Source: a virus. Taken from it: a stretch of DNA of 56,865 nucleotides. The position numbers and the translations under genes are program-made. Where the stretch lies: positions 1 to 56,865 of IMG/VR virus record IMGVR_UViG_3300032304_002452. One strand, 5' to 3'. The first letter of the stretch is position 1; every line of letters starts with the position of its first letter. Below are positions 3,945-42,399 of this stretch, piece after piece. The notes under the pieces are model-generated. The model was not told the origin of the DNA and did no database searches. It saw only the letters and a list, made by a program, of their open reading frames with translations.

Positions 3945-4694
3945 TCAATTTAGTAAAATATTTAATCTATCTTCTCGATTTGGTAAAATATCTTCTTCTT
4001 TGAGTATTGAAATTCCGTCAAAAATTATGACTTCTGATGTAATACTGTTTTCTATTTTAGAAACTTTGTAAGAAATAGTGTTATCTTGTTGAATTGAAAA
4101 ATCTAGAATCATATAATTTCCCGACCTATCTTCTTTAGTAGAAACTATTTCATTAACTTGAAATTTAGTTTTACAGATTTCTTTACCATCTTCATCATAA
4201 TCAAAGTAATTAGAGATTATTTCAACAGCGCTTTCAACTGAATTAACAAAATGAATAATGTCAAACAAATTACAACTTAATTTACAATTGTTTTGTATAT
4301 AATCAACATTGTGAATTTTTATATCTGACTTCTCGATTGTAAAATCTGAAAGATTTTTTTTACAAATCAAAGATTCAGTTAGAGCATACGTTGATTTTGT
4401 CTTGTAATTAAAGATGGTTCCGGATTTTAAAATGGTTTGTAATAAATCATAAAACCTCTTGGCGCATTTTTTAGAAACGGAAAAGTTGAAAAGGTAACCT
4501 ATCTCTGGAACATTATAAATAGGAGTAGGCGCTGTCCTGGGAAATCCCTGATATCCAGAATAACTATTCTCAGATTTCCAAAATGTAATTACATCAGTAG
4601 TAGACCATGTATCATTACTTAATGATAATGAAAGATTGAATTTTTTCAACCTTTCATTCCATTTATCTAAATATTTCTTATCAAATGTTCTCAT
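3945..4694 (-). CDS. Hypothetical protein of the NAD-salvage operon
   Basis: A 249-residue protein I do not recognise. It starts MRTFDKKYLDKWNERLKKF, without the targeting motif, and has no signal or membrane segment. Its ATG overlaps the NAMPT stop as TAATG, so it is co-transcribed and probably translationally coupled with the NAD-salvage genes. Whether it acts in NAD metabolism is unknown. Four scattered cysteines (CKKN, CKLSCN) show no clear metal motif. It ends the operon; I see no strong terminator after it. Confidence 0.75.
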   Translation of the reverse strand: MRTFDKKYLDKWNERLKKFNLSLSLSNDTWSTTDVITFWKSENSYSGYQGFPRTAPTPIYNVPEIGYLFNFSVSKKCAKRFYDLLQTILKSGTIFNYKTKSTYALTESLICKKNLSDFTIEKSDIKIHNVDYIQNNCKLSCNLFDIIHFVNSVESAVEIISNYFDYDEDGKEICKTKFQVNEIVSTKEDRSGNYMILDFSIQQDNTISYKVSKIENSITSEVIIFDGISILKEEDILPNREDRLNILLN

Positions 4695-6151
4695 TAAACC
4701 ATTTCGAGTTCTTCAACATCAAAATTGATTTCAGCTCTTTGACGAATTTCTTGGAAATTATAGTCAACTAAAAGATGTCCATTTTCAAATACTTTCACCA
4801 TCACATCACCTTCATCATCCTTAGCCTTTTGAATTGTTTCAAAACCATTATCAGTTTGAACCAATTTCAAATGTCCTTTTTTAGAAGTTTTGAATGATTG
4901 AACGATGTTTCCATATTTATCCACTTCAAGTGGATGTTTTTGAACATCACGTTCTTCACCATTTATGGTGATTGAACAACATTTGAAGGCGAATTTTTGA
5001 GTATCTCGGTCAACTTTTTGAAGAAGAGCGCCACCCATACCAAACACAATATTTTCAGCTGAGAATCCTTCTTCTACCATCATATCTAAGATTTCAATGA
5101 TAGATTCATAATTAACACCATCACCTTGTATTACACGAATATGGTCGTCAATTACTTTGAAACCTTTTGAGTTAGTACGTCCTCCGAATTTATCCCAAAG
5201 TATATTGAATACTTTTTTCAAGGTTTGAACAGGATCTCCACTATCAGGACGAATTACAAGACGACCATTTAAGTTAAGAACTTTTTCACGAAGTTGACCA
5301 CCCCACAATTCTTCACAAGCCCTTAGAATATTATAAGAGTCAGATACACAAGCTCTTATTCCTGTTGGGTAAGCATCTAACATATTTTCATATGCTTTTA
5401 CTTCATTTTCTTCTCCCCAAGAAGTGATAGTTGAGTGTTCAGAAGCTGGAATAGAAAAAGCCAACATTTCATCTGTGTTGTAAATCTCTTGAGCTAGAAG
5501 AATAGCTGTTGCTGTATCAGTACCACGGAAGTTTACCAAGTGAGCTAAACCGCCAATGCCTGAACTTTCAACAGATGATACGCCACGGAATCCAAAATCA
5601 TGTAACATACAGTTCACAATTCCGGTGATTTGTTCTTTATTATAGTCAGTGGTTTTCTTCAAGTATTTGATAAATACTTTTTTAATTTCACGAGAAAGAG
5701 TTCCCACGGTAATAGGATACCAAACTTGCAGTAAAATCGATTCAAGATAGTTAGTCAACCAACGAGTAGGTTCACCACCATTGTTGTGAATATAAACGAG
5801 TACATTTCCCGTTGGTACAACCGTACCTTCTGGTACAGCTTTGATAGTTACAGGAAGATAACCATCATATTTTTCAAGGATATATCTCCAACCAGATTCG
5901 TTGAAGTGTCCGGGTCCTAAGTGAGCATCCCAGAATTTTTTAGCTTTTTGAATTTTTTCTTCGGTTACAACTTGACCAGTTAGGTAAGTTTTCAAAATGT
6001 AGTTAAGACCGATTACGAGTGTTTCTTTAAACATACCACCACGAGATTCGAGGTAAGATGTTACTGTGTCTGTTCCTTGTGGATATTGTGGCCAGTGAGT
6101 TACTTTGTAACTATCAGACAACATTAGGATGTTATTAAAAATTGTATTCAT
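4694..6151 (-). CDS. nadV: Nicotinamide phosphoribosyltransferase (NAMPT)
   Basis: A 485-residue protein of normal family length. It makes NMN from nicotinamide and PRPP in the cytoplasm. Family signatures are visible: LMLSDSYKVTHWPQYP at the start, the YLESRGG motif, LHDFGFRGVSSVESSGIGG with the substrate-binding Asp, SIPASEHST, and the RPDSGDP phosphoribosyl-binding motif. It lies 10 bases downstream of the NMN adenylyltransferase gene. Together they form the two-step nicotinamide-to-NAD route known from vibriophage KVP40 and shown in other phages to rebuild NAD after defence NADases act (NARP2). A TATATTTA sequence about 24 bases upstream might add a second promoter. Confidence 0.96.
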   Translation of the reverse strand: MNTIFNNILMLSDSYKVTHWPQYPQGTDTVTSYLESRGGMFKETLVIGLNYILKTYLTGQVVTEEKIQKAKKFWDAHLGPGHFNESGWRYILEKYDGYLPVTIKAVPEGTVVPTGNVLVYIHNNGGEPTRWLTNYLESILLQVWYPITVGTLSREIKKVFIKYLKKTTDYNKEQITGIVNCMLHDFGFRGVSSVESSGIGGLAHLVNFRGTDTATAILLAQEIYNTDEMLAFSIPASEHSTITSWGEENEVKAYENMLDAYPTGIRACVSDSYNILRACEELWGGQLREKVLNLNGRLVIRPDSGDPVQTLKKVFNILWDKFGGRTNSKGFKVIDDHIRVIQGDGVNYESIIEILDMMVEEGFSAENIVFGMGGALLQKVDRDTQKFAFKCCSITINGEERDVQKHPLEVDKYGNIVQSFKTSKKGHLKLVQTDNGFETIQKAKDDEGDVMVKVFENGHLLVDYNFQEIRQRAEINFDVEELEMV

Positions 6152-6161
6152 AAATGTTGAT

Positions 6162-7073
6162 TTATTTTTGTGATGTAAATATACTAAATAATTTTTGGTG
6201 TTCCACCATAAACATTTCTGATTTTAACTCAGAAATATCAAACCATTTCAACTCTTGAATATCATCAGAAGGTTGAATTGGTCCCCAAAGATGTTTACAA
6301 GTGAAAAGTGTGGTCATTATTTTATCATCTTCTCCACGAAATCTCCAATCTTGTATTTGACAAGATGTTACATATTTGTAATCTCCTGATTCTGAATTAG
6401 AACCAGTTTCTTTCATATAAACTCTACGAGCGGCTGATTGAACTGATTCATCTTCTGGTTTAACAAATCCTCCGATAAATCTCCATTTAGATTCATCATA
6501 TTTCTTAGCGAGAAGAACTTTTGTTTCATCTGCATTGAGAGGTGCTATATCAACCGTTGGTATAACACGAGGATAAAGATTATAAGTATGATAGATAACA
6601 CCTGAACGAAAATCTTTTGAGTTTTTAACTTCTTCTGAGATTAATTTTCTAATGTCGGTTCCAGCCCAAGTTCCAAGTGGTTCTAATTCTTTAGTTTTAA
6701 ATTTACCGCCACCATTTAAGTAGTGTGGAATAAATGAATCTCGGCTACCATACATAAGAACTTCACCATGAGGATAAACTTCACGAATTCGTTTATCTAA
6801 TTCTTGAGCCCAACGGTTATTATCAGATTGGTCTTGAATGGCTAAGATGATAGAATCTGGATAATGGGTTTGAACCATCTTTTTACGGGTATCAAAATCG
6901 AGAGGATTTTTCTTAGTTCCAACAAACCGTGGAACTCCCAGGAAGATAATTGTTTTTTTGTGATTTCCGGTTACTTGTTTAATAACGTAGTGGTGACCTT
7001 CGTGTAATTCGTGAACTTGGAATCTCGCGATTGCTACACCGATTGAGTATTTAGAAGGATCTATATTATCCAT
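6162..7073 (-). CDS. Bifunctional NMN adenylyltransferase / Nudix-domain protein (NatV-like)
   Basis: A 303-residue protein. Residues 1-170 are an NMN adenylyltransferase of the NadM type: ARFQVHELHEGHH carries the HxGH nucleotidyl-transfer motif and GTWAGTDIRKLI the C-terminal ISxTxxR-like motif. Residues about 175-303 are a Nudix fold (KWRFIGGFVKPEDESVQSAA). The Nudix box is degenerate: where REUxEExG is expected the protein reads RRVYMKETGS, so two catalytic acidic positions are replaced and ADP-ribose hydrolysis is doubtful. It converts NMN and ATP to NAD. First gene of the salvage operon, behind a Bacteroidota-type promoter, therefore probably early. Confidence 0.93.
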   Translation of the reverse strand: MDNIDPSKYSIGVAIARFQVHELHEGHHYVIKQVTGNHKKTIIFLGVPRFVGTKKNPLDFDTRKKMVQTHYPDSIILAIQDQSDNNRWAQELDKRIREVYPHGEVLMYGSRDSFIPHYLNGGGKFKTKELEPLGTWAGTDIRKLISEEVKNSKDFRSGVIYHTYNLYPRVIPTVDIAPLNADETKVLLAKKYDESKWRFIGGFVKPEDESVQSAARRVYMKETGSNSESGDYKYVTSCQIQDWRFRGEDDKIMTTLFTCKHLWGPIQPSDDIQELKWFDISELKSEMFMVEHQKLFSIFTSQK

Positions 7074-10272: not shown

Positions 10273-10302
10273 AAAAACCCTACTTTTCAGTAGGGTTTTT
10301 TT
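10273..10302. terminator. Bidirectional terminator
   Basis: Stem CCCTACT / AGTAGGG (10278-10284 with 10289-10295), loop TTTC, flanked by AAAAA and a T run. It serves the convergent genes ending at 10255 and 10301. Confidence 0.85.
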
Positions 10303-11062
10303 ATTTCTGTTTAATTTCTAAATACCAGTTTGGAAATCCTCCATTCCACCAAGGTGATATATTAACATAGAATTTTAATCCATGTTTTTCTTCCTTTTCT
10401 TGTTCTTGTGAAAGTCCTTCACCCCATCCATCTGAGCATTGTCCTTCTAAATAATCTTTGATTGAATCAATCTCATCACCTGTTAAATCTCTATTAGTTT
10501 CAATTTCACCAGTAATAATATTTTCATCTTTAAGTCCGGTTATTTCCATTCTTAAAATCTTAAAATCTTGATTAAATTCTCTATAAGGATAAAATTGTTT
10601 CAAATCTTCTTCATTAAAAGTGGTTTGAATGGTATCAAATTCATCTTTACCAATTTCAAATTCTTCAAAATCTAAATCATACATTCTGAAAAACTTAGAC
10701 ATATCATTGTTATAAACTTGTTCAATCCATCTTTCAAAATATTCATCAAAATTAGCTCTAACTTCTGAACTACTTAATTTGTGTGCTTGATATTCTTCTT
10801 CATCTTCATCATAATCACCAGCGGTTGAATATCCTAAATCTAATTCATTAGCGATATCTTGACATATATCATTACCTCTTTCATACTTTAAGAAATCAAT
10901 TAAATTATCACCGTCTAAACCATTACCTTCATCTACATTGAATACCTTTTTAACTGGAAATTCAAATGTATAAATTGATTCACGGCTTTTGGCTTTTGGG
11001 TTTTGTAACCATTCACCAAATGTTCTTTTAATTTCGGCTTCAAATATTTTTAAGTGTTTCAT
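10301..11062 (-). CDS. Acidic hypothetical protein with capsid-targeting-like N-terminus
   Basis: A 253-residue acidic protein beginning MKHLKIFEAEIKR (I-F-E site). The C-terminus is Gly/Trp/aromatic rich (WGEGLSQ, SPWWNGGFPNWYLEI), a pattern also seen in small Bacteroidota phage proteins of unknown role. Its ATG overlaps the preceding stop by four bases (ATGA). Last gene of the PPK2 operon. Confidence 0.8.
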   Translation of the reverse strand: MKHLKIFEAEIKRTFGEWLQNPKAKSRESIYTFEFPVKKVFNVDEGNGLDGDNLIDFLKYERGNDICQDIANELDLGYSTAGDYDEDEEEYQAHKLSSSEVRANFDEYFERWIEQVYNNDMSKFFRMYDLDFEEFEIGKDEFDTIQTTFNEEDLKQFYPYREFNQDFKILRMEITGLKDENIITGEIETNRDLTGDEIDSIKDYLEGQCSDGWGEGLSQEQEKEEKHGLKFYVNISPWWNGGFPNWYLEIKQK

Positions 11063-11292
11063 AAAGTGATAATAAATGATTTAATTTTTTCTAATTGAAC
11101 ACTATTAAAGTCATTCTCTTCTAAAAGTGCCATAATATTACTTTTCAATGTTTCAACATCATCAATAAATTCATCAGAATATTCATCTGGTTCAAAGGTA
11201 TTATTTCTAACCACATTTGAATCTGTATTAACTTGGTCAGAACCTAAGTGTGTTCCTCCGAAAAAGTTTTCATATTTTTTAAGCTTCTTCAT
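11059..11292 (-). CDS. Small hypothetical protein with targeting-like N-terminus
   Basis: I place the start at 11292, giving 77 residues beginning MKKLKKYENFFGGTHLG. This ATG overlaps the PPK2 stop as TAATG, while the longer upstream reading lacks the shared peptide. The rest is acidic and helical (DEYSDEFIDDVETLKSN). Function unknown. Its end overlaps the next gene by four bases, so translation is coupled along the operon. Confidence 0.7.
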   Translation of the reverse strand: MKKLKKYENFFGGTHLGSDQVNTDSNVVRNNTFEPDEYSDEFIDDVETLKSNIMALLEENDFNSVQLEKIKSFIITL

Positions 11293-12449
11293 TAATCTAA
11301 AATATTTATTACTTCTGGGTACCAATGACACTTGTTTGGATCTTTTCCCTCATATTCAACTTTATCCAACACATATCTGATGGCGTTTAATCTACCCACT
11401 TTTTTATCATTTGAATTAACAATGATCCAAGGTGAAACTCTTGATGCGGTTTCAACAAACATCTTATTTTTGAATTCTCCAATTAGCTCAAATTGGTCGA
11501 CAACTTTAGCATCGTTTGGAGAGAATTTCCAATATTTAAGTGGAGATTCTTGTCTTAATTTGAATCGAAGTAATTGTTTTTCTTTAGTAATAGAGAACCA
11601 GAATTTAATTAATATTACTCCTTCACGAATCATCTTTTCTTCCCAATCAAGAACATTCCCCATGAAATCATTATATTGGTCCTCTGAACAGTAACCCATC
11701 GCCGGTTCAACGACTGCTCTATTATACCAAGAACGGTCAAAGAAAACTATCTCACCTGGGTTTGGTAAGTATTTTTCGTATCTACCAAACCAATTAGTTT
11801 TTTCCTCTTCAGTTGGAACTCCCAAAGCAACAACTCTGAAATGTTTAGGGTTCATATATTCAACAAATCTTTTGATTGTCGATCCTTTACCAGCGGCATC
11901 ACGTCCTTCAAAAACTATAGCAACTTTCTTTTTATTTTTAACTACCCATTCTTGTAACTTCATTAACTCAACTTGAAGATCATATTTTTCACCTTCATAT
12001 TTCTTTCTTGGTAGAATTGACCATTCGCCTTCAACTTTATCAAAATGTTCATCATCTGATAGAGTTTCTTTTTGTCTTTTAATTCGAGCGGCTAATGTAT
12101 TGATGTAAGCTGTAAATTCTTCTTTAATTCTACGTCTTGTGTTTCTTTTTTTCAGAACTATAATTTGAGATATTTTTCTGAAAAGAGCTTCAACATTTAG
12201 TTCTCTAATAACATCTTCTCCAAACTCTTTAGTCATGACACCTAATAAAAAATTAACATCGATGTTTTTAAACCCATCGTTAAATTTAATTTTATTGGTA
12301 ATTGTGTCATATTCTATACTTTGAAGTATTCCTAATTTAAGCTCGTTTAATGTTTTGATTAGGCTTTTTTCAACTTCATCTAATTCTTCATCAGATAAGT
12401 TGTTGAAATCGAATTTTTCATTAAATTGATTAAATAATTGGAGTCTCAT
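11292..12449 (-). CDS. ppk2: Polyphosphate kinase 2 (PPK2) with capsid-targeting-like extension
   Basis: A 385-residue protein. Residues about 145-385 are a PPK2 domain: Walker A EGRDAAGKGST (181-191), Walker B FFDRSWYNRAVVEP (236-249) and a lid RFKLRQESPLKYWKFSPND. It moves phosphate between polyphosphate and nucleotides (class I PPK2-like). An extra N-terminal 145 residues, acidic then basic, precede the kinase and begin MRLQLFNQFNEKFDF, matching the targeting-like peptides of its neighbours. All catalytic motifs look intact. It sits third in a tightly coupled five-gene operon (13831 to 10301) of targeting-peptide proteins. PPK2 is rare in phages. Packaging in the head is inferred. Confidence 0.93.
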   Translation of the reverse strand: MRLQLFNQFNEKFDFNNLSDEELDEVEKSLIKTLNELKLGILQSIEYDTITNKIKFNDGFKNIDVNFLLGVMTKEFGEDVIRELNVEALFRKISQIIVLKKRNTRRRIKEEFTAYINTLAARIKRQKETLSDDEHFDKVEGEWSILPRKKYEGEKYDLQVELMKLQEWVVKNKKKVAIVFEGRDAAGKGSTIKRFVEYMNPKHFRVVALGVPTEEEKTNWFGRYEKYLPNPGEIVFFDRSWYNRAVVEPAMGYCSEDQYNDFMGNVLDWEEKMIREGVILIKFWFSITKEKQLLRFKLRQESPLKYWKFSPNDAKVVDQFELIGEFKNKMFVETASRVSPWIIVNSNDKKVGRLNAIRYVLDKVEYEGKDPNKCHWYPEVINILD

Positions 12450-12452
12450 AAC

Positions 12453-12929
12453 TTATATATTATTTTCCCTTTCGAATTTTATTACTATTTTACGGCAAAG
12501 ATTATCTTCATTTCTATAATTTGGTTTATTCATCATACTTTGATCAAATGTTTCTGATTTAACAATGTTTGTTGATTCTCCAACTCTTCCCCTTCCTTTA
12601 GGGAATATCTTTTCATACTCTAATTCATATGAAAGAGTAATTGATTCGGAATGTAAATAGTTTTTCAATTGTTGGATTGTAAGAAATAAACCTTTAGTTT
12701 GTTCTTCTCTCAAGTTTTTAACTTTGATTTGTAGTTCAAACTTGGTGCGTTTTTGACCACCATTTAGATAGATACCAAGTACCATTATATGTATATCGTT
12801 ACTTGGATCAGGAAAAATTTGATATTCAATAAATTCATCTTTTAAATTTAGACAAATATCGGATATGTTATTTAGGACTTCTTTGCCTAAATCGAAGGAT
12901 TTTCCCTCATTAAATTTTAAAATTCTCAT
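12453..12929 (-). CDS. Hypothetical protein with short targeting-like N-terminus
   Basis: A 158-residue protein beginning MRILKFNEGKSFDLGKEVL, a shortened form of the shared peptide. It has alternating strands and helices (ELQIKVKNLREEQTKGLFLTIQQL) and a basic end. It overlaps the upstream gene by four bases (ATGA) and lies 3 bases before PPK2. Function unknown. Confidence 0.75.
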   Translation of the reverse strand: MRILKFNEGKSFDLGKEVLNNISDICLNLKDEFIEYQIFPDPSNDIHIMVLGIYLNGGQKRTKFELQIKVKNLREEQTKGLFLTIQQLKNYLHSESITLSYELEYEKIFPKGRGRVGESTNIVKSETFDQSMMNKPNYRNEDNLCRKIVIKFERENNI

Positions 12930-13831
12930 ATCTTCTTATCAAATATGTAGAGGTCGTAAATGTTATTTCCTCTTACTTTTTTTATGCTTGTTAGGATTTT
13001 TCCAGTGGTAGAATCTAGACATTTAAAAACTCCTAAAGTTCTACCTTTATCTGTGATAATTTTAACAGTATTACCAGGTTGTCCCATAGCTCCTAAAACC
13101 GCCACATATTGATTTCCATATATTGATTTCAAAAAAGAGATTCTAACATTCTCAGTATTCTTTAAATTATTGATATATGGATTTTCAGTTGATTTAGTTA
13201 AGTCGAGTTTGGTGTCGGTTGTTTTGACTTTAATTGAAACGAATTTTCTTTCTTCTGTTCCTAGTGAAACTTCCTCACGGTTTTGGAGTACGTTTTGTTT
13301 AACTAAATTTTGTTGATTCCTACGAATAACATTAAAATCGGCCTTAGCTATAATTCCACCTCTCATGCCTTTGTCATTCATATTATACCCAGCTGGGGGT
13401 AACCGATAGAATGATCCAGTAAATGTCATAGAAAGAATTCTATCAGCTCTAAAAAGACGCCAGATTTTTTCTATTTTTCTATTTTGTGATACAGACCAAC
13501 CATTTAGGTGCCATCCTCTAATCAGAGGTTTTCCTTTGGATGATCGACCTAACACCATAATTTGTATAGCTCTCTCATGTCCGGCAAAATGGTTATCTTT
13601 TTCGCCTTTATAGTTGATAAGAAAAATCATACCGTATTTTATTGCTTTTATTGCTATTTCATCTGTATATTTAATTGGTTCATTGATGGGTATATTTTCA
13701 AAATCCTTGATTCCTTTCAGTGAAAATTTAGGCAAAAATTCTCTATCCTCCTTTAAATCATTATAGGATTCTCTCACAACATACTCAACTGGCTTTGTAT
13801 TATAATAGCTTTTTGCTTGCGTTAAGTTCAT
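12926..13831 (-). CDS. Hypothetical protein with WYL-like region
   Basis: A 301-residue protein, first gene of the PPK2 operon. The middle region has GHERAIQIMVLGRSSKGKPLIRGW, then WRLFRADRILSMTF, which resembles the beta pattern of WYL domains (a final F-R-x-D-R-I is typical), and next PPAGYNMNDKGMRGG. The C-terminal 70 residues are beta-rich with FKCLDSTTGKIL. It lacks the targeting peptide (starts MNLTQAKSYYNTKP). WYL-like domains bind ligands or nucleic acids, but I cannot assign a role. A TATATACT box lies upstream. Confidence 0.7.
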   Translation of the reverse strand: MNLTQAKSYYNTKPVEYVVRESYNDLKEDREFLPKFSLKGIKDFENIPINEPIKYTDEIAIKAIKYGMIFLINYKGEKDNHFAGHERAIQIMVLGRSSKGKPLIRGWHLNGWSVSQNRKIEKIWRLFRADRILSMTFTGSFYRLPPAGYNMNDKGMRGGIIAKADFNVIRRNQQNLVKQNVLQNREEVSLGTEERKFVSIKVKTTDTKLDLTKSTENPYINNLKNTENVRISFLKSIYGNQYVAVLGAMGQPGNTVKIITDKGRTLGVFKCLDSTTGKILTSIKKVRGNNIYDLYIFDKKI

Positions 13832-13850
13832 TAAAGTTAAATACTTTTTT

Positions 13851-13860
13851 AGTATATATT
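13851..13860 (-). promoter_or_regulatory. Late-type box of the PPK2 operon
   Basis: AATATATACT on the - strand, 19 bases from the ATG at 13831. It matches the recurrent TATATATACT box. Confidence 0.5.
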
Positions 13861-13875
13861 AAACTCATATAGGCA

Positions 13876-38632: not shown

Positions 38633-40840
38633 TCAATCCAATCCCCAACCTTTACGAGCTTCTTGAATTCTTCTACTAGATGTTAGATGTCTTCTTTTAA
38701 CATCTAGTAGTTGTTTATAATCAACTCCCTCTGTATATTCAATTCTTTTTAAGACTTCATCAATTAGATTTTGTATTTCGGTGTTTTGTAAACCTGTAAA
38801 TAAATCCTCTACAATGCCCTTAAAGTCATTCTTACCATAAATTGCTGTTAAGTTTACAAGTGTCATTACTGTATCATCGTGTGATGAACCATCTGCTGCA
38901 TATCTAATGTTTCCAGCAGATGTTGTGTGTTTTATGAATGTTGTCATTTCTTGGATAGTTTCGTGTTCACTTACAATAATTGATCTATTGTGTAAACGGT
39001 CTTGATAATCTTTAACCATTAAGTTTTTATTTTCACCTACTTTCAGACCAATCTTTTCTTCTAAAGCATCAACTCTATGTTTAAATCGGAAAAATACACC
39101 GGATCCATAGTCATTATTTCCACCGAAAACATTTGGTAAGTGAGCTAGTAACTCATTGCCATAGGTATTCACCTCTAAAACCGATTTAACATTATCTGAA
39201 TTAAAATGTTCAAAAGATAAGAGATAGACTATTTCCGCCAAATCAGCCACAGATATAATATTACATCTGTAAATGCCAATCTGTTCTAATCTAACAAAAT
39301 CTAAAACATCTTTATAATTAGCTTTTTGTGAGTTTATTAAGTCAATTGGCTTAGGAACCATTTTGAAAATATTGATAACTGAGTAGTCTAATCCCAATCC
39401 TTCAGCAACATCAATAGATAAGACTATTTTGTAATCTTTTCTTAATTGTGAATTATAAACCGATTCATCGGTTGACCATTTTAGGTCTTGATATGAGAAT
39501 CTTAACTTTCTATCGAATTCGTCAATAGGTTTCCATTCAAATTGTTTTTTGTTTCTGGTTAATTCTTCAATAAGTGCCTCATCTAATAAGCTTCTAGATG
39601 AATTGATGAATCTTAAATCAAATTCTTGGTTGAAAGCTTCTTCACCACCAATATCTTTTATTGTTTCTTTTTTCCAAGTTGTAATCTCTGTGATTTGTGG
39701 TAGTTTTACTTCACCAATTGATTCTCTGATAATATCATCTTCAGAACAATCAACCGAATTGAATACATTAATAACCCATTTTTTCAATTCTTCGTTATAG
39801 TATAACTCTGAGTTGTTATTTGGAAATCTTTCTTTTAGATGATTTAAAACCTGTTCAGATGTTATATTGAATTCTTCTAACTTCTTAGTATTCAACCTAA
39901 TGTAAGTTACAAATCTTTTTGGTACTTGCCACCAATAAACTCTTTTAGCTACATAAGATGATTTCTCACCTTCTGGCTTTTCAGCTTCCATAAGTAGTTT
40001 ATGGAACAGATTAAATCCACTTGGTGTGGATGTTATGATAATTTTAGAGTTGTCAATGTTAGCAATGGTTGGGAAAACAGATTTATAGAACTTATCGGCA
40101 ATATTATCTGGTAGATAAGCAAACTCATCTAGATATAGAAAGTCAGCAGATTGTCCAATAGAAGCTGTTTTGGTTGTGGCAAATCCTTTAATTCTACTTT
40201 TGTTTTCAAAAACTCTAAATTTTTGGTTCCAGTTAAGAATACCTTGTTGAAGAAAAAAAGGTAGTCTTTGATATATCTCTCCGATTTTATCAAGTACTTC
40301 AACTGCGGTATCTAATTTATTGGCGGTTACAAGAACGTTTTTATTATTATTGAAAAGAACAAAGTGTAACATCATAATAGATGATGAGATGGTATTGTGT
40401 GATAATATACCGTTTGTGTAGTATCTATGGTTTATGTGATCTATTGATAAGTCAAACATAGATGATTTGAATTTATCTTTTTTAATAAGTAAAACCTTTT
40501 CTAATCCATTTGTCGTTTGTATTGATTGACCTACTTTCAGGTCCTTGACTCTTATTTGGCTAAATTTATCATCAAATACTAAGTGGTTGTCAGCGCAAAC
40601 TAATCTGTGTGTGTCTGTATTAAGAATATAATTTGTGTATGGTTGTGTTATATGAATCGAATCAACATTTTCAAATCCTGTGTCAGTTGATGTTCTATAT
40701 CCATCAATTGAAATAGAACTTAATATTTTTTTTGAGTCATCATTTTCGTCTAATTTAATATTTCTATATTCTATTTTTTCGATGACCTGAATACAAAATT
40801 TGAGAGTGTATATTATTATTGATTTAAAAAATTCAAACAT
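38633..40840 (-). CDS. terL: Large terminase C-terminal part with intein C-fragment
   Basis: A 735-residue ORF. Residues 1-149 are the intein C-fragment: helical lead (IIIYTLKFCIQVIEKIEYRN), a block B-like LVCADNHLVFD, IRVKDLKVGQSIQTTNG, and the end SIDHINHRYYTNGILSHN with the His-Asn needed for splicing. The C-extein starts with Thr: TISSSIMMLHFVLFNNNK continues Walker A. The ATPase part has Walker B SADFLYLDEFAYLPD and the coupling motif ITSTPSGFNLFH; the nuclease part has SIDVAEGLGLDYSV, VSVADLAEIV and DGSSHDDTVM. Alone it lacks Walker A, so it needs trans-splicing with the product of 41828-42340. The spliced protein would be about 698 residues (T4 gp17 is 610). Overlaps the endonuclease gene by 25 bases. 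Confidence 0.93.
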   Translation of the reverse strand: MFEFFKSIIIYTLKFCIQVIEKIEYRNIKLDENDDSKKILSSISIDGYRTSTDTGFENVDSIHITQPYTNYILNTDTHRLVCADNHLVFDDKFSQIRVKDLKVGQSIQTTNGLEKVLLIKKDKFKSSMFDLSIDHINHRYYTNGILSHNTISSSIMMLHFVLFNNNKNVLVTANKLDTAVEVLDKIGEIYQRLPFFLQQGILNWNQKFRVFENKSRIKGFATTKTASIGQSADFLYLDEFAYLPDNIADKFYKSVFPTIANIDNSKIIITSTPSGFNLFHKLLMEAEKPEGEKSSYVAKRVYWWQVPKRFVTYIRLNTKKLEEFNITSEQVLNHLKERFPNNNSELYYNEELKKWVINVFNSVDCSEDDIIRESIGEVKLPQITEITTWKKETIKDIGGEEAFNQEFDLRFINSSRSLLDEALIEELTRNKKQFEWKPIDEFDRKLRFSYQDLKWSTDESVYNSQLRKDYKIVLSIDVAEGLGLDYSVINIFKMVPKPIDLINSQKANYKDVLDFVRLEQIGIYRCNIISVADLAEIVYLLSFEHFNSDNVKSVLEVNTYGNELLAHLPNVFGGNNDYGSGVFFRFKHRVDALEEKIGLKVGENKNLMVKDYQDRLHNRSIIVSEHETIQEMTTFIKHTTSAGNIRYAADGSSHDDTVMTLVNLTAIYGKNDFKGIVEDLFTGLQNTEIQNLIDEVLKRIEYTEGVDYKQLLDVKRRHLTSSRRIQEARKGWGLD
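40394..40840 (-). other. Intein C-fragment (IntC), 149 residues
   Basis: Encoded by 40840 down to 40394. The splice junction is HN | T, between 40394 and 40393. The stretch from ISIDGYRTSTDTG onward matches the usual intein order of blocks (TDTG..., ADNH, VKDLKVGQ, YYTNGILSHN). The first 35 residues are a hydrophobic/helical segment found in the linker of intact terminase inteins. Confidence 0.85.
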
Positions 40841-41805
40841 TTTTCTATTATTTCTTTTTTGTTCTTTTTGAATTCAGAATCCCAGATAACTAAAACTTTG
40901 AATCCCTCTTCTTCAGCAACTCTTATTTTCACGGCATCTTTTTCCCATATTTCTTTGGATGTAGGACCATTTTCTTTAAAAAATGGGTGTGGATAATCAT
41001 CTTCTTTAAATTTTTCTGGATTCGCATGAAAATAATCACCGTTGTATTCTATTATTTTCATTTCATTGATATCAACAAAGTCGTATGAGTAAAACTCCTT
41101 TCCTTTTATTGATAAAAAGTATTCTTTATTTTTTGTTGCAAAATATACTTTATTAAGTAATTCATTTTTTTGATATCCATTTAATACTTCATAAAATAAT
41201 TCTTGACTGATTCTTGAAAATCCACACTTCATATTTCCATTTTCCAATAGACTTTTTTGCCATTTAGATTGTCTTTCTGAGAATATTTTAATTCCCTCTT
41301 CTTCTCCATATTTATCTATACATTTTTCTAAATTAAATGTGGATTGTCTTTCTTTTCTTTTTATTAAAGACTCTTCTTCTGAGAATCCTCTATCCATCCA
41401 GTATGATAGTTGAGTGCTGTTGGATTTATATTTATTTATATTTGATATAAATAAATTTCTTTCATCGTCTGATTTCCAATTAATAAAATTTTTTGAAAAA
41501 GGACTTCTAGATTTTCTCTCTTCTTCTGTTGTCCTACTTTTATGATTTGGATTATTCTCACCAGAAAACATCTTTGAAAACATTTTTTTATAAACTTCAC
41601 TCTTCATGTGTTTTCCTGAGTTTTTAGAGGTTGATTTTAGATCTTCATTCGCCATTATGGGAGCATCAGGAAACATTTTTTTATATTCTTTTGTTGTTAT
41701 GTTTCCATGTTTGAATTTTAAATGTTTTCCGTATATCCTCTTACACTTTTCTCCACATATCCTACAAGTTACTAATTCATTATTATCTATTATTTCAAAA
41801 CTCAT
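40816..41805 (-). CDS. Homing endonuclease inside the split terminase gene
   Basis: A 329-residue protein between the two terminase parts. N-terminal zinc finger of MucR/ROS type (TCRICGEKCKRIYGKHLKFKH), then a NUMOD3-like stretch (MFSGENNPNHKSRT), basic helices, and a C-terminal Vsr-like nuclease domain: YSYDFVDINEMKIIEYNGDY with catalytic Asp and Glu, then HPFF, IWEKDAVKIRVAEEEG and VLVIWDSEF. This is the architecture of the endonucleases described in fractured genes with split inteins. Its ATG is 22 bases after the end of the N-half, and it overlaps the C-half by 25 bases, so all three are one transcription unit. Confidence 0.9.
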   Translation of the reverse strand: MSFEIIDNNELVTCRICGEKCKRIYGKHLKFKHGNITTKEYKKMFPDAPIMANEDLKSTSKNSGKHMKSEVYKKMFSKMFSGENNPNHKSRTTEEERKSRSPFSKNFINWKSDDERNLFISNINKYKSNSTQLSYWMDRGFSEEESLIKRKERQSTFNLEKCIDKYGEEEGIKIFSERQSKWQKSLLENGNMKCGFSRISQELFYEVLNGYQKNELLNKVYFATKNKEYFLSIKGKEFYSYDFVDINEMKIIEYNGDYFHANPEKFKEDDYPHPFFKENGPTSKEIWEKDAVKIRVAEEEGFKVLVIWDSEFKKNKKEIIEKCLNFLNQ

Positions 41806-41827
41806 ATAAACTTTTTTATTTTATATA

Positions 41828-42340
41828 TTAAAACGATGGCTTCCCCTCAATCAGGAAAATAGTATCATATATTTTTATTTTAATCCTTTCTAATATTGAT
41901 AATTTTCTTTGTTGAGATATCATAAAATAGTACAATTTTCCTACCCTTGTGTAAATTTTTAATCCGTTTTTCTCTATCTCTATTATGGTATTAAAATTGG
42001 AGCATTTACCTGTTTGTCTACTCGCCATTAGAATATTAAATCGGTTGTTAAAGAAGTTATCTAAGATTTCTTTTTGATAGTCTCTCAATCTTAATTGTAC
42101 AGGCTCACCTTTTTCACCTTTAACCCAACAGTATTTCTCAGCGAAATGGTGAATATCCATTTTACATTTTACATATTCGTCAATTTCAGTAGCTGACATT
42201 CGGAATGTTAACCCGGCTTTTCTTAGTCCAATTGTATTCTCATAGAAAGGATTTTCTATACGACTCAAAACAAAACCGTTATTAATCTTTTCAGAGGCTT
42301 CATCTATCATTTTTGTGTTCCAAATTATTTGTTTTGACAT
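41828..42340 (-). CDS. terL: Large terminase N-terminal part with intein N-fragment
   Basis: I use the ATG at 42340 (MSKQIIWNTKMIDEASEK), which has a good purine leader; the longer reading from 42397 runs into the promoter. The 112-residue N-extein ends RLRDYQKEILDNFFNNRFNILMASRQTGK cut short here: the last residues MASRQTGK are Walker A up to the invariant Lys. Then the intein N-fragment starts with Cys (CSNFNTIIEIEKNGLKIYTR) and runs 58 residues to a stop. T4 gp17 reads SRQLGKTT at the equal place, so the intein splits Walker A between Lys and Thr. Only trans-splicing can make an active ATPase. Confidence 0.93.
   Translation of the reverse strand: MSKQIIWNTKMIDEASEKINNGFVLSRIENPFYENTIGLRKAGLTFRMSATEIDEYVKCKMDIHHFAEKYCWVKGEKGEPVQLRLRDYQKEILDNFFNNRFNILMASRQTGKCSNFNTIIEIEKNGLKIYTRVGKLYYFMISQQRKLSILERIKIKIYDTIFLIEGKPSF
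41831..42004 (-). other. Intein N-fragment (IntN), 58 residues
   Basis: Starts at Cys codon 42004-42002 directly after the Walker A Lys. Block A is CSNFNTIIEI. The helical part (RKLSILERIKIKIYDTIFLI) is followed by a stop at 41828. Block B is not in this fragment but in the C-fragment, so the split is N-proximal and atypical compared with most natural split inteins, which break after block B. Confidence 0.85.
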
Positions 42341-42358
42341 AAAGGAAATAAACTTTTT

Positions 42359-42382
42359 TATATATACTTTACATATATATAC
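42359..42382. promoter_or_regulatory. Divergent late-type boxes
   Basis: TATATATACT at 42359-42368 and TATATATAC at 42374-42382 on the + strand, between the divergent terminase and 42400 genes. The palindromic cores could serve both directions; TATATAAAAAAG on the - strand is 18-20 bases from the terminase ATG. Confidence 0.45.
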
Positions 42383-42399
42383 AAATACTACATTCACTT

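Follow-up and report, generated by a model that had tools for sequence, protein, structure and literature searches.

The window analysed here is a 56,865-base fragment (about 57 kb) held in IMG/VR as IMGVR_UViG_3300032304_002452. On its minus strand, at 11292–12449, is a gene with an ATG start that encodes a 385-aa polyphosphate kinase 2 (PPK2) bearing the class I signature DRSWYN. The first-pass annotation had placed this ORF exactly and gave no strand. The gene lies in a tight operon of that strand. At the head is a 301-aa gene (12926–13831), followed by a 158-aa gene (12453–12929), PPK2, a 77-aa gene (11059–11292) and a 253-aa gene (10301–11062), all on the minus strand. The junctions are, in order, an ATGA overlap, a 3-nt gap, a TAATG overlap that includes the PPK2 stop and an ATGA overlap. 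The earlier description of a coupled operon with other targeting-peptide genes is thereby confirmed, with one exception: three of the four other genes start with the short tag described below (158 aa, MRILKFNEG, 8.9 bits; 77 aa, MKKLKKYENF, 17.0 bits; 253 aa, MKHLKIFEAE, 13.2 bits), and the first gene is untagged. A promoter-like TTTAATATATACTA occurs at 13850–13863 (minus strand), 32 nt before the first ATG of the operon.

By PPK2 and tail sheath, the nearest relatives of the window are the complete huge phages LR745206 (W01, 634 kb) and LR756502 (W02, 642 kb), and next nearest is LR756501 (W03, 735 kb). Genomes of the 634-, 642- and 735-kb type are described as Mahaphages, whose hosts are predicted to be Bacteroidetes (PMC7162821; polyphosphate is not mentioned in the text of that paper). 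The window phage is likewise a huge phage, and its host is probably also a member of the Bacteroidetes. In LR756504 (636 kb) and the Lak phages the sheath is present and no PPK2 match was found. The 301-aa product is 72% identical to its counterparts in W01 and W02. Most of the 28 nearest viral loci have its gene as the same-strand neighbour on the upstream side of PPK2; the product has no Pfam, PHROG or PADLOC match and no significant PDB match. No protease or capsid gene occurs within the 57-kb window, and the head genes are known from the relatives. None of the phage records searched is an isolate carrying the window PPK2 gene. Elsewhere in the window (38633–42397, minus strand), endonuclease-like ORFs and a segment resembling an intein interrupt the large terminase region.

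The kinase and its phage lineage

The 385-aa ORF matches PF03976 (E=1.9e-78) and scores 303.7 bits with TIGR03707, for which the cut-off is 301.8. The catalytic domain occupies residues 146–371 (11337–12014, minus strand). Over these residues the PDB sequence matches are PPK2s (E about 3e-73), and the Francisella tularensis enzyme (5llb/5ll0) matches with E ~1e-26 and an rmsd of 1.3 Å. Walker A is GRDAAGKG (residues 182–189) and Walker B is DRSWYN (residues 238–243). In 38 aligned phage PPK2s, G182, R183, D184 and A186–G189 of Walker A are invariant, as are D238–R244 and the lid residues R295, R299, P303, K308 and D313, so that the motifs are intact as first read. When the gene is compared with a 92% identical relative (L005), dN/dS is 0.09 for the whole gene and 0.02 for the kinase part, indicating that it has been maintained by purifying selection. 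PADLOC returned no defence match for this protein. That the ORF is a genuine, intact class I PPK2 is well supported by these features.

The residue after Walker B is Asn in class I, Gly in class II and Glu in class III PPK2s, and class I enzymes are nucleoside-diphosphate-specific (PMC8776046). In the window protein this residue is N243, and DRSWYN, with the same Asn, is found in 51/51 non-redundant phage PPK2s. The signature points to conversion of NDPs to NTPs and not to use of AMP, which corrects the nucleotide range, AMP included, that was given initially. The class I enzymes of F. tularensis (4YEG/5LL0/5LLB) and Sinorhizobium meliloti (SMc02148, 3CZQ) resemble the phage protein in the catalytic domain (~48% identity, rmsd 1.3 Å) and have the same Walker A, Walker B and class I Asn. 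In contrast to these, the phage protein has an additional tag and a phage-only helical domain, and phage PPK2s form a separate group in the tree.

PPK2 had been described as rare in phages. Among huge phages it is not, since a scan of IMG/VR matched 298 viral loci with PPK2 relatives, of which 80 were kept. In a quick tree, 51 phage PPK2s group together (SH-aLRT 81) apart from 76 other bacterial PPK2s, and the neighbours of the phage group are four PPK2s from marine bacterial MAGs (99). Phage contamination was ruled out for these four, whose neighbouring genes are bacterial and include ppx-like genes. A PPK2 on an Acinetobacter phage record was set aside because the record itself looks bacterial (recC, ubiE). 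Virus-encoded ppk1 and ppk2 have been reported on viral contigs in metagenomes as auxiliary metabolic genes (PMC13188868, citing Li et al. 2025); in the part of that report consulted, a head tag, a phage-only domain and a cargo polyprotein are not described. Viral ppk2 is then already on record, and within the open-licence literature the tag, its link to the scaffold and the phage-only domain appear to be new.

The N-terminal tag as a genome-wide module

The 145-residue extension noted in the first-pass annotation is real, for the kinase match begins at about residue 146–148, but the tag-like part of the extension is confined to its first ~11 residues. The extension consists of two modules. 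The first is an 11-residue tag, MRLQLFNQFNE (12417–12449, minus strand), in which the aromatic pair F6/F9 is followed by N-E. The second is a folded helical domain of residues ~14–130 (12060–12410, minus strand). In an AlphaFold2 model of the protein (mean pLDDT 89.8), nearly all residues beyond ~15 are confident; residues 1–10 fall below 50, and the tag is the disordered part. A profile of the helical domain matches phage PPK2s and none of 80 bacterial PPK2 ORFs, and by this profile the domain is confined to phage PPK2s. A PDB fold search with it gave nothing at E below 1.

The tag, about 10 shared N-terminal residues, sits on many otherwise unrelated proteins. It was scored at a threshold of 10 bits with a profile built from W01 N-termini other than that of PPK2; counting with a regex only was dropped in favour of cross-trained profiles, its background of 2–3% being too loose. 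At least 10 bits were reached by 15 of the 64 window genes compared with 0 of 221 internal-Met controls from the window, and such controls passed in 1 of 2395 cases in W01 and 2 of 3073 in W03. The window PPK2 scores 13.6 bits, which against near-zero controls excludes chance for its tag. The NAMPT, NMNAT/Nudix and GluRS genes of the window are untagged. Orthologues, defined by reciprocal BLAST after removal of the first 25 residues, tend to be tagged together: both members carry the tag in 10 pairs between W01 and W03 (p=2.6e-7), 7 between the window and W01 (p=7e-5) and 5 between the window and W03 (p=0.001). The long form of the tag (FINE) and the short forms (FNE, FES) interchange between orthologues. 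A tag module shared by unrelated proteins is well supported by these sequence comparisons.

PPK2 is tagged in the window, W01 and W03, and few other tagged proteins are common to the three genomes. The same N-terminus, which the first-pass annotation had proposed to look for in other huge phages, is kept in the PPK2s of W01, W02 and W03. These have the aromatic pair as F/F or Y/F, and the tag ends in I-N-E in W01 and W02 and M-N-E in W03, as compared to F-N-E in the window; N10 and E11 are invariant in the five closest phage PPK2s. Most PPK2s close to that of the window begin with the tag. Exceptions in the same clade are L106 and L108, which have no clear tag, and L094, in which it is degenerate.

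These observations bear on a rival explanation, namely that PPK2 is an ordinary auxiliary enzyme that raises the NTP supply for replication inside the infected cell, its N-terminus being a relic or no packaging signal at all. The enzyme is complete and conserved, viral ppk2 genes have been presented as auxiliary metabolic genes (PMC13188868), and the nearby NAD-salvage genes encode untagged metabolic enzymes. However, the tag is kept in the PPK2 orthologues of three genomes that have little else in common at the N-terminus, it matches T4 internal proteins and scaffold repeats (see below), and the PPK2 operon has the promoter-like motif of tagged genes and of the W03 protease gene. We regard this explanation as unlikely.

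Likeness to T4 targeting peptides and scaffold repeats

In T4, the first 10 residues of IPIII are enough for packaging; within the targeting peptide, residues 4 and 7 direct targeting and residues 8 and 10 direct processing, and gp21 cuts after L/I-X-E (PMC9026906). Models were trained on the huge relatives without any T4 input and used to rank 594 T4 starts. The W03-trained model placed IPIII, IPII and IPI at ranks 2–4, and the W01-trained model placed IPI, IPIII and IPII at ranks 5, 7 and 9. Alt, which is also packaged by T4, was missed, so the models catch one kind of targeting signal only. A strict pattern of two aromatics three apart followed by [ILMV]xE occurs in T4 in IPII and IPIII only, and in 29 genes of W01 and 57 of W03, where shuffling expects 1.7 and 2.65.

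The T4 capsid-targeting sequence (CTS) of IPI, IPII and IPIII is, like the tag, a short N-terminal peptide on unrelated proteins with an aromatic pair three apart and then a Glu cleavage motif. F6 and F9 of the window PPK2 have the spacing of T4 residues 4 and 7. The L/I-X-E cleavage motif is absent from the window tag; because it ends in F-N-E, it is termed CTS-like and not a T4 CTS. Huge phages differ from T4 in using the tag on dozens of proteins per genome, in the common occurrence of a shorter FNE/FE form (the form of the window PPK2) and in repeating the motif in the scaffold-protease as well.

This last protein is encoded in W01, W02, W03, G003 and G005 by an ORF in which a gp21-like prohead protease (head maturation protease in PHROGs, E=5e-27) is fused to 11–13 tandem repeats of YSEY[IL]AEN; the window fragment has no gp21-type protease. 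The repeats are the same motif as the tag (YSEYIAE), and in W01 the scaffold-protease is the only gene with at least three copies. The simplest reading of this match is that tags would enter the core by imitating the scaffold repeats. A review describes the placing of certain proteins in the core as still unresolved (PMC9958956), and for that reason the match bears on the mechanism of the T4 targeting peptide too.

The promoter-like motif, TTTAATATATA(G/C)nA at ~33 nt before the start codon, is found upstream of many genes in the window, W01 and W03. It occurs at the heads of tagged operons and before the tail sheath, the W03 protease gene and W03 PPK2; matches before capsid genes are weaker. 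With each genome scored by the other's model, the motif preceded 46 of 80 tagged leaders versus 85 of 394 untagged ones in W01, and 39 of 64 versus 91 of 409 in W03. The T4 late promoter TATAAATA is not enriched before tagged genes. The distribution of the motif suggests late co-expression of the tagged genes and the PPK2 operon.

A short, partly hydrophobic tag that is so common (15/64 window genes) and outnumbers the known T4 cargo might instead be a different localisation or assembly signal, for example for membrane attachment or sorting in the infected cell, with no relation to the head. Its spacing, the same as in the T4 CTS and the scaffold-protease repeats, argues against this, and we consider such a role highly improbable. 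Of the earlier proposal of a head-targeting extension, what survives is an element of ~11 residues instead of 145, for which independent lines of sequence evidence give good support: the T4 internal-protein match, the scaffold repeats, retention in orthologues and the promoter-like motif. Packaging of PPK2 in the head is a strong inference from these features.

PPK2 as putative head cargo

The explanation that we favour, and hold to be somewhat probable as a whole, is that the window PPK2 is head cargo that is injected and uses host polyphosphate to make ATP or GTP. The first ~11 residues would act as a capsid-targeting peptide akin to those of T4 internal proteins. The aromatic pair would imitate the YxxYIAE repeats of the scaffold-protease and in this way bind the scaffold core, so that PPK2 would become part of the prohead. 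Cleavage by the prohead protease is then predicted after E11; in the 634-kb phage, for example, the mature N-terminus past the Glu would be ELFIRDIDHTTLEQIK. The released helical domain and kinase would remain in the head and enter a new host with the DNA, possibly together with further tagged proteins, anti-defence enzymes for example. There, an active class I PPK2 would use ADP or GDP and polyphosphate to regenerate NTPs ahead of phage gene expression. If this is true, the phage brings into the cell an energy supply that is fuelled by the host yet does not depend on a host metabolism that fails or is attacked by defences. The tag would then also let the injected protein set of a phage be read from sequence alone.

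Packaging could also serve another end: polyphosphate synthesis, a shift of host polyphosphate stress signals or head assembly. Synthesis of polyphosphate is the preferred direction of some class I PPK2s (PMC8776046), and no role is known for the additional phage-only domain. The class I signature is, however, mainly tied to NDP phosphorylation, and no sequence feature of the window PPK2 indicates synthesis; such an end appears decidedly unlikely.

The proposed delivery of PPK2 for NTP regeneration may be part of a wider strategy. We think it evenly poised whether the heads of huge phages carry a whole cargo proteome, dozens of enzymes addressed by a peptide copied from the scaffold-protease repeats. 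A phage-specific class I PPK2 lineage would be a conserved member, brought in so that host polyphosphate yields ATP and GTP as infection begins, and other lineages would package PPK2 by their own tag or in a cleavable polyprotein. PPK2s of a second phage group start with M[KR]xLLTEVxxIKxMMG, and, as weak evidence, starts of this type are also seen on three further genes of G002 (294 kb; a regex finds only 4 of 371 genes). PPK2s on the Moraxella Mcat6 and fecal phage records have no tag at the start. In some phages PPK2 lies within proteins of 540–2377 aa and is bordered, exactly or closely, by [LI]NE sites (INE|GFFD, LNE|S). An [LI]xE site precedes the phage PPK2 domain in 25 of 47 sequences compared with 8% of control windows.

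Embedded PPK2s are found, for example, in proteins of 1116–2377 aa at L112:5020-12150, L111:5020-10023 and L128:5062-8409, the parts of which are separated by L/I-N-E sites. The other parts are PG_binding_1 and, by eye, a protein-kinase-like N-terminal part. It is possible that these are cargo polyproteins cut by the protease. On the L160 contig (G002), many genes begin with further motifs that recur at N-termini (LTESDLxRIVKRVI, ITESQ, LxxxIRKVLxE), which suggests that tag families of their own exist in other phages.

The 83 strictly tagged proteins of W01 and W03 have Pfam matches to PPK2 (2), Acb1, SMODS-associated NUDIX, T4-type RNA ligase (Rnl1-like), 2'-5' RNA ligase, methyltransferases and DnaB_C. 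Like T4 IPI, several of these would be of use as infection begins. The tagged Acb1 anti-CBASS protein, SMODS-associated NUDIX and T4-like RNA ligase of W01/W03 (L010-L078) are a candidate injected counter-defence set. Phage NAD+ reconstitution pathways are known to counter NAD-depleting defences. In the window, an untagged NAD+ salvage pair lies near the PPK2 operon (4694–7073, minus strand), NAMPT beside a NUDIX-domain protein with an NMNAT-like N-terminus, and similar NAD+ salvage genes are present near PPK2 in W02 (L003 7417-9879).
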